The position numbers and the translations under genes were made by a program. From contig JARUKZ010000010.1 in NCBI GenBank assembly GCA_029688955.1, forward strand, positions 62,001 through 126,000: a DNA stretch of 64,000 bases, given 5' to 3'. Below are positions 5,821-10,646 of this stretch, in pieces (the stretch's first letter is position 1; each line of letters starts with the position of its first letter). Below the pieces are notes generated by a model that did not search any database, was not told the DNA's origin, and was given only the letters and a program-made list of their open reading frames with translations. The stretch comes from Chitinispirillales bacterium ANBcel5. GTDB taxonomy: Bacteria; Fibrobacterota; Chitinivibrionia; Chitinivibrionales; Chitinispirillaceae.

Positions 5821-6741
5821 TTACCTCATAATGATAGCATACTGGGCATCCTGGCGGACAAAAATCAACGCATCACCATCCTTCTTTATATAATAGTCGC
5901 CGCTAAAATGAACTATGCCTGAGTTAATTAGGGTAAAAGATGGCTCCGGTGATCCAAAATCGTAAGTAACTTGTGACCTAATATCATTATAGAAAAACTG
6001 AGTACCTTCAGAATTATATGAGAATTCCTCAAGAGTGTTGGTCTGAGCATTATATTCAACTGTAAAAGCCGTAAGAACACTCAAGTCAGGGCCACCGGTA
6101 CCAACAACTTCAAATTCCTGATACATGTTATCTATACTTGGCAATGGATCTGGCACAGGAACAGAGAACTGGTCCAAAAGTGTTTCTTCTTCAGGCTCTT
6201 GTTCAACAACTATTACCGTTCGCTCCGCTACAACAGTTTCTCCCCCAGAGGAGACTGTGTAAATCACCTTATATTCTCCCGGCACACTAGTATTAACCTG
6301 ATCATCAGTCTCTACCAGATGGCCAATATCGAAGCCTCGATCATTGTATGCAGTTGCCCCCGGATCCCTAAAATCTGAGTACTGTTCTACAGTAATAGTA
6401 CTTTCACCAACCATTTCAATCCTTAAGCCATCAGAAGGGGCTTGGTCACCACTATCGCCGTTGTCACCTGTATCGCCATTATTCCCATTATCGCCATTAT
6501 CGCCATTATTCCCATTATCTCCATTATCCCCGGTGTCTCCAGAATCTCCATTGTCCCCGGTGTCTCCGTTATCACCACCATCTCCATTGTCGATGATTTG
6601 TTCATCCTCTCCGGGATCATCCGGTGATACTGAAGAATCGCAGTTATAGAAAAAAAGTGAAACCGCAGCCAGAAGACAAAAAGTTTTACAAGTTTTCCGG
6701 GAAAATAAACCCCACACTGTTTTGTTTTTAAAACAAAGCAT
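5821..6741 (-). CDS. Probable cell-surface protein with Gly-X-Y-like triplets and a DUF5011/Ig-like domain
   Basis: 306 residues, exported. An N-terminal signal (hydrophobic FCLLAAVSLFF) is followed by a cysteine at 34, so a lipoprotein is likely although the lipobox (FYNC) is atypical. Residues 52-99 are 16 uninterrupted triplets of the form X-G-D/N, a collagen-like glycine period rich in Asp and Asn that may bind calcium or act as a stalk. Residues about 107-177 match the bacterial Ig-like DUF5011 pattern (TVEQYSDFRDPGATAYN, then PGEYKVIYTV). The last 110 residues are unrecognised. GAAAGG precedes the ATG. No operon partner. Confidence 0.68.
   Translation of the reverse strand: MLCFKNKTVWGLFSRKTCKTFCLLAAVSLFFYNCDSSVSPDDPGEDEQIIDNGDGGDNGDTGDNGDSGDTGDNGDNGNNGDNGDNGNNGDTGDNGDSGDQAPSDGLRIEMVGESTITVEQYSDFRDPGATAYNDRGFDIGHLVETDDQVNTSVPGEYKVIYTVSSGGETVVAERTVIVVEQEPEEETLLDQFSVPVPDPLPSIDNMYQEFEVVGTGGPDLSVLTAFTVEYNAQTNTLEEFSYNSEGTQFFYNDIRSQVTYDFGSPEPSFTLINSGIVHFSGDYYIKKDGDALIFVRQDAQYAIIMR
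6445..6588 (-). repeat. In-gene triplet repeat encoding (X-Gly-Asp/Asn)16
   Basis: Low-complexity DNA with a 9-base and shorter periodicity, made of GGNGAT/GGNAAT-type codons, encodes 16 tripeptides with glycine in every middle position. Codon variants are mixed, so the array is not a very recent simple expansion. It produces long spurious open frames on both strands. Confidence 0.85.
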
Positions 6742-7009
6742 AGAAAAAACCTTTCTTTTTATGGTTACTCTGATAATCCTAAAACCCTAATTCCAATTAA
6801 AAAAAATCAGCTTACTTTTATTCACCCATTGGAAAAAACCTCATTTAATCGCTTTAACTAAGACCTTATAATGGGTAGTACATTATTGTATAAGACTATA
6901 ATATGATTAATTACCACATGCTCCAACAATGGATATTAAGTTGATTTTTCATTTCCCAGACAGAAGAGAGGATTTTTAGGGGGGATCGTTGAATTCGGGG
7001 GCACCCAAA
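6742..7009. other. Non-coding stretch between the surface protein and the encapsulin terminator
   Basis: AT-rich stretch with no supported gene. It should hold the promoter of the leftward surface-protein gene. A G-rich patch (TTTTTAGGGGGGATC, about 6974-6988) lies near the encapsulin end; I see no recognised element there. Confidence 0.5.
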
Positions 7010-7039
7010 GCTGCATCCAGAAACGTTTCTGGATGCAGC
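7010..7039 (-). terminator. Perfect 30-base palindrome ending the encapsulin cluster
   Basis: GCTGCATCCAGAAAC is followed directly by its exact reverse complement. On the minus strand it lies about ten bases beyond the encapsulin stop codon and is followed by TTTGGG. The most economical reading is a transcription terminator with a weak T tract. The zero-length designed loop and the perfect symmetry also allow a protein-binding site. Confidence 0.6.
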
Positions 7040-7048
7040 CGGCCTTTT

Positions 7049-7861
7049 CTATACCTGCATAACACACACCGACTCGGGAACATTTACCCTCAGTGCAATG
7101 CTTTCGGAAACAAAGAACACATACTCCATCCCCTCAGGGCCTTCAAATCCGGCCATTAAATCCTGTCCAAGGGCAATAGTGGCAAACTGCTCACCCGATG
7201 CAACCAACACCCCACCGGAGTTTAGTGCAGAAGCTTTTATTATTGAACCACCAACAAGGGATTTTAGGTGCTCAAATTCAAGCACCTCTTCCTGTGGATA
7301 ACGCCTAAAGAGGCTGTTATAGAGTGTAGGTTCAAGAGCTAAACTGTATGGTCCATGAAAGCCAGCTTTGTCTAATTCATTTATGGCTTCAATTACCGAT
7401 TCTGTTGCATCACCAACACCACTCCACTCTCTAAGCTTTGTCTTTTTTGTCCCTGGGGAATTGGTAAGACCATGTGTTTTCATTGGCTCTGAGCCATAAT
7501 AGAGAAGTTTATCCTCCATTTTTGCACAGGTAAGAACACTTGAAACAAGGTCTTTCATATCAAACACTATTTTTGACTTGGTGTAAAGATCCAGATCGCG
7601 TCCATCCAAAGAGAATGAGCTTGAGATTAGAACAAGCGGTATTGACTGAGCGCTTATAAGTTGGGGACCGCTCTCTCCGTTACCCTCTATGTGCTGATCA
7701 TGCATTGAAATACTTTTTACACCCAAGCCATATGGTCCTTCAATATGTAACAACTTTCGTGCGCTTAATTGCTGTGTTGCGACTGATTTTACAGTACTAT
7801 CGATTAAATCCCATACACTTTCTTCAAAAGGTGCATCATCTCTATTTAGAAATTCGCTCAT
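7049..7861 (-). CDS. Encapsulin shell protein (family 1, linocin M18-like)
   Basis: 270-residue HK97-fold protomer that self-assembles into a protein nanocompartment. Length and landmarks fit family 1: an N-terminal helix region DAPFEESVWDLIDSTV, ARKLLHIEGPYGLGV, then GLTNSPG, the HGPYSLALEPTLY segment, and a C-terminal end rich in FFVSESIALRV. GGGAGG lies eight bases before the ATG. It is the last gene of a same-strand run: DJ-1/PfpI protein, kinase homologue, ferritin-like cargo, shell. The cargo stop is 41 bases upstream. The likely role is mineralising and storing iron or limiting oxidative damage, inferred from the cargo. Confidence 0.93.
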   Translation of the reverse strand: MSEFLNRDDAPFEESVWDLIDSTVKSVATQQLSARKLLHIEGPYGLGVKSISMHDQHIEGNGESGPQLISAQSIPLVLISSSFSLDGRDLDLYTKSKIVFDMKDLVSSVLTCAKMEDKLLYYGSEPMKTHGLTNSPGTKKTKLREWSGVGDATESVIEAINELDKAGFHGPYSLALEPTLYNSLFRRYPQEEVLEFEHLKSLVGGSIIKASALNSGGVLVASGEQFATIALGQDLMAGFEGPEGMEYVFFVSESIALRVNVPESVCVMQV

Positions 7862-7902
7862 TACTAAGCCTCCCTAAGTGCAACAATAGTTAAGAAATAA
7901 TC

Positions 7903-8247
7903 CTAATCTTTTAAATTTCCAACAGTTTTAATTTCCTTTTGCTGTGCAGCACCTTCTTCAAGCATTTCTTCAACTTCTTCGGCACCTTCTTGCATTAATT
8001 TTTTCTCATCTGGCAATAACAGCTCAAGCAGTTTCTGAAACTCCCCGGCATGGACCCGTTCTTCATTTGCCACATCCTGCAAAACAGCCTTGGCAAGCTT
8101 GTTATCGGTTGCATCTGCCAAAGCCTCATACAGATGAATGGCCTCTTCTTCAGCAGCAAGCGATAAGCGTATAGCCCTGCTTAATTCTCTTTCTGAAATT
8201 TTTTTCCCTGGAACCACACCAGAGAACGGGTTTACAAACTCAGCCAT
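7903..8247 (-). CDS. Encapsulated ferritin-like cargo protein (EncFtn)
   Basis: 114 residues from ATG 8247, chosen for AAAGGAG six bases upstream. Two helices carry the half-ferritin iron ligands: a glutamate in EEEAIHLYEAL and the E-x-x-H pair in NEERVHAGEF, the pattern of encapsulated ferritins that form a ferroxidase site across a dimer. The C-terminus ends KTVGNLKD, close to the family 1 targeting peptide type TVGSLK, which docks cargo on the inside of the shell. A Glu-rich linker precedes it. The encapsulin gene follows by 41 bases, which makes the cargo assignment firm. Confidence 0.92.
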   Translation of the reverse strand: MAEFVNPFSGVVPGKKISERELSRAIRLSLAAEEEAIHLYEALADATDNKLAKAVLQDVANEERVHAGEFQKLLELLLPDEKKLMQEGAEEVEEMLEEGAAQQKEIKTVGNLKD

Positions 8248-8292
8248 TTCTTTACTCCTTTCCCGATCGTGTACCAACACATTTTTTTATCT

Positions 8293-9318
8293 CTATTCCT
8301 GTCCAAAAAGTATATCAAACAGATTTATTTCATTATCATCAGTGATATTAATGCGCATTACACCATAGTACGCAAGGAGTACAGAGATACCGATGGTGAG
8401 CAATACTTTAAAAACCCTTCCCCTTTTTACCCCAATCTCTATTCTACCCTCTGTAGCATTTACAAAATAATCGATTACATCTTCTGGTAAATTACAGGTG
8501 AATTTGAGATGTATACCACTTAATTCTTCAAGAATGTTTGCAATACTTGGTGGACGTTTTTTTGCCTTTTTTGACATGCATGATTCTACCAGTCGAATCA
8601 ATTGTGGTGGTAACTTCAATTTATATCGCTTAAGGCGCCTGTAGCGATTTTTCCTTTTAGCCCGATGTAGTCTTTTTCTCTTTTTTTGGCTAAATGCAGC
8701 TTGCCCTGTAATAAGTTCATACAAGATACAACCGAGTGAATAGATATCTTCTTTTACTCCCGAATCTTTTCCCTTTAATTTTTCGGGTGAACAGTACTTA
8801 ACAAAGTTATCGTTTTCTTCAATTTTTTCTTTCCCCGCAAGAGGGGTACTTAAGCCTATATCAGTAACCTGTATGGTTCCGTCTTTAGTTAAGAAGACGT
8901 TTGAGGGCCTAAGGTTTCCATGAATAAATGAAATGGCATCATCCTGAGGACAATTAAGCTGATGTAAAGCCTTCAAAGCCTTACATACCATTATCCCCAC
9001 TGAAGTACATACCTCCAGGGGAAATGCACCTCTGGTTGAGAGAAGCTCAGCTAATGTAGGCTCACTTACCCATTGCTGCTCAAGAAATGGCAAACCGTTA
9101 TAAAACCCACTACCTAACACCGGAACAACTAAAGGGTGGTGGATCGACTCAAGGAGCTTTTTATCTACTCTAAAGGGTGATGATTTTGTCCTGAAAAGCT
9201 TAACTGCTCTAAGCTGCCCCTCAGGTAAAAGAGTCTGGTACACGATAGAATCGCTACCCTCTGAAACAGTACTGATTATTACTCCTGAACCAATTTGTCG
9301 TGTTTTTTTTGAATTCAT
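8293..9318 (-). CDS. Membrane-anchored Ser/Thr kinase homologue, probable pseudokinase
   Basis: 341 residues. The kinase fold is clear: ATP lysine in AVKLF (K40), activation-loop DIG at 153-155, SPE at 177-179, and DIYSLGCILYELITG (sub-domain IX) near 191-205. The catalytic loop reads HGNLRPSN (133-140) where active kinases have HRDLKPxN, so the catalytic Asp is Asn. A very basic insert follows (about 212-234). A hydrophobic helix at about 304-322 makes a single membrane anchor, with a short tail after it. It lies 15 bases after the PfpI-like gene and 45 bases before the encapsulin cargo gene, so it probably belongs to the same transcript. It may be a scaffold or a weakly active enzyme. Confidence 0.85.
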   Translation of the reverse strand: MNSKKTRQIGSGVIISTVSEGSDSIVYQTLLPEGQLRAVKLFRTKSSPFRVDKKLLESIHHPLVVPVLGSGFYNGLPFLEQQWVSEPTLAELLSTRGAFPLEVCTSVGIMVCKALKALHQLNCPQDDAISFIHGNLRPSNVFLTKDGTIQVTDIGLSTPLAGKEKIEENDNFVKYCSPEKLKGKDSGVKEDIYSLGCILYELITGQAAFSQKKRKRLHRAKRKNRYRRLKRYKLKLPPQLIRLVESCMSKKAKKRPPSIANILEELSGIHLKFTCNLPEDVIDYFVNATEGRIEIGVKRGRVFKVLLTIGISVLLAYYGVMRINITDDNEINLFDILFGQE

Positions 9319-9333
9319 GGTGTTTTAAAACTT

Positions 9334-9849
9334 TTAGTGTTTACTTAACATCTCAACACAGGTATTTAAAAATTGTGGTAAATCTTTAGGACCTCTGCTT
9401 GAGACCATATTTCCATCTATAACAACAGGTGCGTCTATATATTCTGCTCCTGCGTTTTTTATATCAACAGCAACTGATTTCCATCCCGTTAGTTTTCTCC
9501 CTTCAAGCACTCGAGCTGAAATAAGCAGCTGAGGTGCATGGCAAATTAAAAAAAGAGGCTTTTGAGTTTCCATAAATGCCCTCGCAAATACAACCGGCTC
9601 TTTATGAGCCCTGAGCCTATCGGGAGAATACCCCCCGGGAATAAACAGAGCATCGAACGCAGCCGGATCGGCTGATCCGGTTTCTAAATCGATTGCCACA
9701 ACGGTCCCTTCCTTTTTTCCCTTTACCTCCGCTCCCTTCTTTAGTCCCAGGTGAACCAGCGAATGCCCAGCTTCCCTGAACGCTTTAGCGGGGGTAGTGT
9801 ATTCAACGTCTTCAAACATATCATCAATGAGTATAGCAATAACAGCCAT
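9334..9849 (-). CDS. DJ-1/PfpI family protein
   Basis: 171 residues, full length for the PfpI/YhbO branch of the DJ-1 superfamily. Marks are the N-terminal IDDMFEDVEYTTP with the conserved acidic residue, FIPGGYSPDRLR, and the nucleophile elbow LICHAPQLL with the reactive Cys-His pair. Members act as deglycases, hydratases or stress proteins, often in oxidative or carbonyl stress. AAGGAG precedes the ATG. It is the first gene of the probable four-gene encapsulin transcript, which suggests a stress-linked role for the whole set. Confidence 0.9.
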   Translation of the reverse strand: MAVIAILIDDMFEDVEYTTPAKAFREAGHSLVHLGLKKGAEVKGKKEGTVVAIDLETGSADPAAFDALFIPGGYSPDRLRAHKEPVVFARAFMETQKPLFLICHAPQLLISARVLEGRKLTGWKSVAVDIKNAGAEYIDAPVVIDGNMVSSRGPKDLPQFLNTCVEMLSKH

Positions 9850-10147
9850 TCTCTTCTCCTTTTCTGTTTTTTAAGGTATCGCTTATTTCAGCAACACTGA
9901 GAGTAGAGCAAACTCTATTCCATTTACCTACCAGCTATGTAGTCACCGTCATATTCGTTAGAATTGAAAATGTGGAAAAGGATTTCTTAATACTGCAAAC
10001 CTTCCACGACCTTTCCCCTAACCTGGGCATCGATACTAATGAATTAGATGCAGCCTGAGCTGGTCATGGTTTTTGCTTATCTGAGGATATTCAATTTAAA
10101 ACGATATCACAGTTTCTAATTACTCGGTTTTGAAAGGATTTGTCATT

Positions 10148-10609
10148 ATGATCAGCTATGGAATAAGCAAAAACTACTCTCTACCAATCCAAACAGTTCT
10201 CAAACAACTTCCAAAAGAGCTTACTAAAAAAGGGTTTAGTGTACTCTCAACCTATGACATTGAAGAAACATTTAACGAACATCTTGGGGTCAGCTTTAAA
10301 CCTTATTATATAATCAGTGCAGCTATTCTCCCGCTTGCTTATAAGGCGCTATTGAAAGAAGAGCATTTTGGGGTAGTCCTTCCCTGCAACGTTGCAGTAT
10401 TTAAGAAGTCAGATCAAACAGTAGTGACAGGAATTAATCCAAACACCTTCATGCACGTTATCAATAACGAAAATTTAAACGAAGGGGCCCTTGTGGTGGA
10501 AAGAAAGCTTCGTGAGGTGCTGATTGCACTGGAGAAACGTGAAAACAAGTTAAAGAGGGAAAAAAACAGCTACAAAGCTACTAAACAACTGGATAAAGTT
10601 GTAGCCTAA
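10148..10609 (+). CDS. DUF302 family protein
   Basis: 153 residues. The core YDIEETFNEHLGVSFKPYYII...LPCNVAVFKK has the typical DUF302 fold pattern of two beta-alpha-beta halves; the biochemical role of the family is not established. The C-terminus adds a Lys/Glu-rich helical tail. ATG 10148 is chosen because AAAGGA lies nine bases upstream; a TTG at 10130 precedes that site. It is divergent from the encapsulin cluster across about 300 bases and converges on engB at a shared terminator. Confidence 0.75.
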   Translation: MISYGISKNYSLPIQTVLKQLPKELTKKGFSVLSTYDIEETFNEHLGVSFKPYYIISAAILPLAYKALLKEEHFGVVLPCNVAVFKKSDQTVVTGINPNTFMHVINNENLNEGALVVERKLREVLIALEKRENKLKREKNSYKATKQLDKVVA

Positions 10610-10617
10610 CCATTACC

Positions 10618-10646
10618 AAAGGAACCGGCTTAACCCCGGTTCCTTT
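10618..10646. terminator. Bidirectional terminator between DUF302 gene and engB
   Basis: Inverted repeat AAAGGAACCGG / CCGGTTCCTTT with a seven-base loop between two convergent genes; the engB stop codon lies inside it. Flanking A and T runs suit both directions. Confidence 0.75.

Follow-up and report, generated by a model that had tools for sequence, protein, structure and literature searches.

A ferritin-encapsulin pair with two additional upstream genes

We found that a four-gene cluster of Chitinispirillales bacterium ANBcel5 is organized around a conserved ferritin-encapsulin pair, and the account that we consider probable is that of a vertically inherited iron compartment of the EncB/EncC type with lineage-specific accessory genes added upstream. 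In favor of this account we counted the pairing of ferritin and shell genes in 12/12 genomes, the synteny of the locus, the single clade formed by the carriers of the PfpI gene, and a kinase homologue that lies beside encapsulin in this genome only and has lost catalytic residues. Two points were counted against it. The conservation of PfpI rests on three genomes, and the kinase homologue has an intact reading frame and keeps all of the family-invariant positions past residue 171; this pattern agrees with selection for the fold and speaks against a mere transient in the genome.

The cluster occupies positions 7049-9849 of the minus strand of the window, that is, the whole stretch of 64,000 nucleotides that was analyzed. 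Read 5' to 3', the genes encode a PfpI protein, a kinase homologue, a ferritin-like protein and an encapsulin, and the ORF coordinates gave gaps of 15, 45 and 41 bases, exactly the layout that the first-pass annotation had described; its four family assignments likewise agreed with the profile matches. The terminator scan detected no terminator-like site in any of the three gaps. A hairpin with a 14-bp stem lies directly 3' of the encapsulin stop codon (7005-7040, minus strand; -28.9 kcal/mol for 6995-7051, z = -5.15), and it likely marks the end of the transcript; it was missed by the terminator scan because its T tail is weak. Since the gaps carry no terminator-like site and the hairpin follows just past the encapsulin stop, a single transcript covering all four genes is plausible from the sequence. 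The promoter scan returned one plus-strand site, which is below chance expectation, and the Rfam search of the window returned no RNA family. Clear Shine-Dalgarno sites precede the PfpI gene (AAAAGGAG), the ferritin gene and the encapsulin gene, and none precedes the kinase gene.

The core is a family 1 encapsulin with ferritin-like cargo

The shell protein (270 aa; 7049-7861, minus strand) matched Linocin_M18 (E 6e-69) and encap_f1 (E 1e-66), and it scored 224.8 bits against NF041155 (cut-off 100), which places it in family 1. The ferritin-like protein (114 aa; 7903-8247, minus strand) scored 105.2 bits against EncB_fam (NF058679, cut-off 90), as encapsulated-ferritin cargo does, and stayed below the cut-off of TIGR04535 (78 vs 125). 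The mechanical ORF of this gene opens at a GTG at 8280; we preferred the ATG at 8247 because the alignment with most relatives starts at MAEFVNPF and because this codon is preceded by an AAAGGAG site. The protein ends in the C-terminal targeting peptide KTVGNLKD. Tails of the TVGNLK, SVGNLK or TVGDLR form were found in 12/12 ferritins, and all 12 also keep the ExxH metal-site positions (E...NEERVH).

Among 168 genomes of the phylum, 13 carry a shell gene that scores over the family cut-off. In 12/12 genomes related at the family or order level, including the present one, the same type of ferritin gene stands directly before the shell gene, which bears out the earlier statement that the pairing of ferritin and encapsulin is known; these ferritins are 57-74% identical to the protein of the window. 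The thirteenth genome (G109) has a distant shell protein, 27% identical, and no ferritin. Within family f1 the encapsulin locus is flanked by transketolase, engB, trpD and an ABC-transporter-like gene set, and because these neighbors are shared, we conclude that the locus has been inherited in place within the family. A search of plasmid records with the ferritin gave no match.

The pair resembles the system of Myxococcus xanthus, a family 1 system of the FLP-TP class in which the EncA shell holds the ferritin-like cargo proteins EncB and EncC. The shell protein of the window matches EncA over its full length (8v4n, E 5e-37), and the ferritin-like protein matches the EncC structure (7s8t, E 4e-18). 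The EncC tail is listed as a TVG(S/N)L-type motif (PMC11202242), in agreement with the tail found here. Unlike in M. xanthus, the cargo gene of the window lies directly before the shell gene, and PfpI, kinase homologue and DUF302 genes are its neighbors. Judged by these family relationships, the core is an ordinary operon for an iron-storing nanocompartment of a known kind, with putative assembly and cargo loading. The TVGNLK tail would load the ferritin-like protein into the shell, where the ferroxidase site of the ferritin would oxidize Fe(II) and the mineral would be stored.

The PfpI gene accompanies the core in one clade

The first gene of the cluster (9334-9849, minus strand) encodes a protein of 171 aa that belongs to the DJ-1/PfpI/YhbO class (TIGR01382, 162.5 bits vs cut-off 139; PF01965 also matched). 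Its best structure match was Escherichia coli YhbO (1oi4, E 5e-48), and against the deglyc_PfpI equivalog it scored 139.9, below the cut-off of 330. The nucleophile elbow with its Cys-His pair, a hallmark by which the DJ-1/PfpI assignment was judged, is intact (ICHAPQ; FLICHAPQ or LLICHAPQ in three orthologs). The PfpI protein of Pseudomonas aeruginosa is reported to be a methylglyoxalase (PMC11987610). What sets the protein of the window apart from the YhbO/PfpI class is its place in an encapsulin operon. As canonical cargo it was rejected: it ends in CVEMLSKH and has a TVG(S/N)L-type motif at neither end. Lacking a targeting peptide, it is most readily taken for a putative cytoplasmic partner that stays outside the shell.

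The first-pass annotation had extended the encapsulin cluster by both the PfpI and the kinase gene; next to encapsulin in relatives, the PfpI part held, narrowly, and the kinase part did not (0/12 other genomes with a shell gene over the family cut-off). The two sister-genus genomes that have encapsulin (L018 and L021) each carry a PfpI gene with 65-66% identity directly upstream of the ferritin gene, so that conservation beside encapsulin covers three genomes of two genera; beyond L018 and L021, no further close PfpI ortholog was found within the family. In the tree built from ferritin and shell sequences, the three carriers form one clade (branch support 93/95). Since the carriers group together in this way, a single gain is the simplest account, and the PfpI gene was probably gained once and then kept.

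It could be argued that PfpI is a mere neighbor, functionally unconnected with the compartment. Its narrow distribution would suit this reading, and so would an order-level relative (G033) whose 62% identical PfpI gene lies on a separate 10-kb contig that has no encapsulin gene. However, a comparison with 36 relatives placed the close ortholog (at least 62% identity) in four genomes, the three carriers and G033, and all four have encapsulin. All three carriers keep the order PfpI-ferritin-shell, with the kinase gene inserted in the present one, and the 65-66% identity implies that this arrangement outlasted the divergence of the sequences. A further point comes from structure 3fse, in which, according to its depositors, DJ-1/PfpI-like and ferritin-like domains are joined in one protein; by analogy it may serve as an independent, if thin, hint at a functional link between PfpI and ferritin. 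We therefore regard the mere-neighbor reading as somewhat unlikely and a link between PfpI and the compartment as modestly supported. PfpI would then be a cytoplasmic enzyme, either a methylglyoxalase or one for damage control, that is produced under the same stress.

A predicted membrane pseudokinase, beside encapsulin in this genome only

The second gene (8293-9318, minus strand) encodes a degenerate Ser/Thr kinase homologue of 341 aa that matched Pkinase (PF00069, E 5.5e-29, 101.8 bits). Its relatives among solved structures are StkP and PknB. Its kinase domain spans residues ~8-268 and is followed by one TM helix predicted from hydropathy (~302-325), whose basic side faces the kinase domain, and by a 16-residue tail. 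HRD is replaced by HGN and DFG by DIG, the helix-C Glu has become Asp (E52D), and the glycine loop is gone (SEGSDS, two glycines lost), so that the HRD Asp, glycine-rich loop and helix-C Glu of an active Ser/Thr kinase are all missing. The AxK Lys, the HxxLxPxN Asn, the DxG Asp and the PE motif are kept. We compared the protein with 15 homologues; these are its best matches, so the comparison is fair for the family and not for kinases at large. It has lost 16/55 family-invariant positions, whereas any one of the homologues has lost 0-10, and the HRD Asp is present in 15/15 homologues. Beyond residue 171, 13/13 invariant positions are kept and the reading frame is intact. Since the Pkinase match and the catalytic losses go together with these 13 kept positions, the assignment as a pseudokinase whose fold is seemingly preserved is well founded at the level of sequence, and the predicted TM stretch supports the earlier designation as a membrane pseudokinase. 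The protein ends in NLFDILFGQE, with a TVG(S/N)L-type motif at neither end, and was rejected as canonical cargo.

No ortholog was found in the 168 genomes of the phylum, where the best matches were 31-37% identical kinases, mostly of 603-712 aa; a search of genome contigs based on the kinase likewise gave no ortholog and a single 24% match, in a cyanobacterium. Apart from the present genome, the comparison set begins with the sister genus (g8). In the sister-genus genomes the interval between PfpI and ferritin measures ~28-43 bases, and in the present genome it holds the kinase gene. The composition of this gene is slightly under that of its neighbors (GC 0.387, GC3 0.325); composition is not decisive for a foreign origin, and the kinases that it matches best come from the same phylum. 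The PknB/StkP-like membrane Ser/Thr kinases of this lineage share the kinase domain and the TM position with the window kinase (32-38% identity to the 15 homologues). Unlike it, they have an extracytoplasmic C-terminal half and the catalytic residues, whereas the window kinase stops shortly past the TM helix (341 aa vs 603-683 aa). On these sequence features, the gene is a putative offshoot, now shortened, of an expanded membrane kinase family whose members have 600-680 aa. This genome and its relatives show a strong expansion of membrane Ser/Thr kinases; most of the relatives searched gave 5-26 matches each.

Two readings of what the gene now does have to be weighed. It may be a decaying duplicate, a chance survivor on its way to loss: the C-terminal half and the catalytic motifs are gone, the ribosome site is poor and no ortholog is found. 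However, the frame has neither a stop nor a frameshift, the invariant positions of the second part of the domain are untouched, and the identity of only 32-38% to homologues suggests long unbroken persistence, unless evolution has been unusually fast. We judge this possibility unlikely. Alternatively, the kinase homologue may be a working part of the compartment, a TM-anchored cytoplasmic pseudokinase whose binding to shell, ferritin or a partner kinase places or regulates the compartment at the membrane. Its position within the operon with short gaps, the single TM helix, oriented with its basic side towards the kinase domain, and an intact frame in which invariant positions of the C-terminal lobe are kept while catalytic ones are lost would all agree with such a role; the retained AxK Lys, Asn and DxG Asp would make nucleotide binding possible. 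Yet within the phylum set the gene adjoins encapsulin in this genome only, it lacks a Shine-Dalgarno site and a targeting tail, the literature search gave no description of a kinase with encapsulin, and co-location is the only basis of the tethering or regulation idea. A working role is thus quite improbable, and the fuller scenario, in which a duplicated receptor-type kinase became a membrane-anchored pseudokinase that docks or regulates the ferritin encapsulin at the inner membrane, is very improbable. If it were true, an encapsulin iron store would have its first known membrane tether or signalling input in this pseudokinase. In the account that we prefer, the kinase homologue would be a shortened, catalytically dead inner-membrane offshoot that joined the operon in the lineage of this genome; it is probably co-transcribed and weakly translated, and is probably no working part of the compartment.

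Relation to described encapsulin operons

Lineage-specific accessory genes of unknown role have been catalogued in family 1 operons, with short-chain oxidoreductases, cupins, DUF1345 membrane proteins and ferredoxins among the examples (Andreas and Giessen, 2021; PMC8346489). The main text of that catalogue names no PfpI, DJ-1 or DUF302, and the kinases that it names are the xylulose kinases of family 2. Outside subscription papers, preprints and supplements, no paper was found that brings encapsulin and PfpI together, and encapsulin co-occurs with 'threonine protein kinase' in one broad review, with a single mention each. The association of PfpI with encapsulin is thus likely to be new, and the four-gene arrangement appears to be undescribed. 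Of the additions to the cluster, PfpI alone has evolutionary support; the pseudokinase link is seen in one genome and is the least supported, so that the most eye-catching element is also the one with the weakest support. Little is known about the regulation of encapsulin iron stores, their placement in the cell and their coupling to stress defence, and the comparison shows neighbors worth testing: DUF302 (8/12 loci), PfpI (3/12), and a superoxide reductase downstream in two order-level relatives.

DUF302 and other neighbors of the compartment genes

A DUF302 gene (PF03625, E 9e-13; 156 aa; 10139-10609, plus strand) is divergent from the cluster across a 289-bp spacer. DUF302 genes lie beside ferritin-encapsulin in the window and in L019, L020, L021, L022, L023, L024 and L025, which makes DUF302 the commonest neighbor of the pair in this family. 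In a search of 61 genomes, each of the seven best DUF302 matches was a gene next to encapsulin. DUF302 is thus a better conserved partner than PfpI or the kinase, and one that the first-pass annotation had missed. No paper joining DUF302 and encapsulin was among the matches listed in the literature search.

In two order-level relatives from other families, a desulfoferrodoxin-type superoxide reductase gene lies directly downstream of encapsulin (L016:6166-6573, minus strand; L017:2758-3153, plus strand). Like PfpI, superoxide reductase is an enzyme type of stress defence, and the two would fit a shared theme around the compartment. In L016, a pyridine nucleotide-disulphide oxidoreductase gene comes next after the superoxide reductase gene.

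In four loci (L019, L020, L021 and L023), DUF302 and engB are separated by a set of four genes; one of these is ABC ATPase-like, and the set resembles a lipid-transport system. It is missing from the window, as DUF302 and engB are direct neighbors there (10609-10630). The gene downstream of the encapsulin operon (5821-6741, minus strand), which is not conserved at this place in relatives, encodes a lipoprotein-like protein that combines a bacterial surface Ig-like domain with a Gly-Asp-Asn/Thr/Ser repeat of low complexity, which matched collagen weakly.
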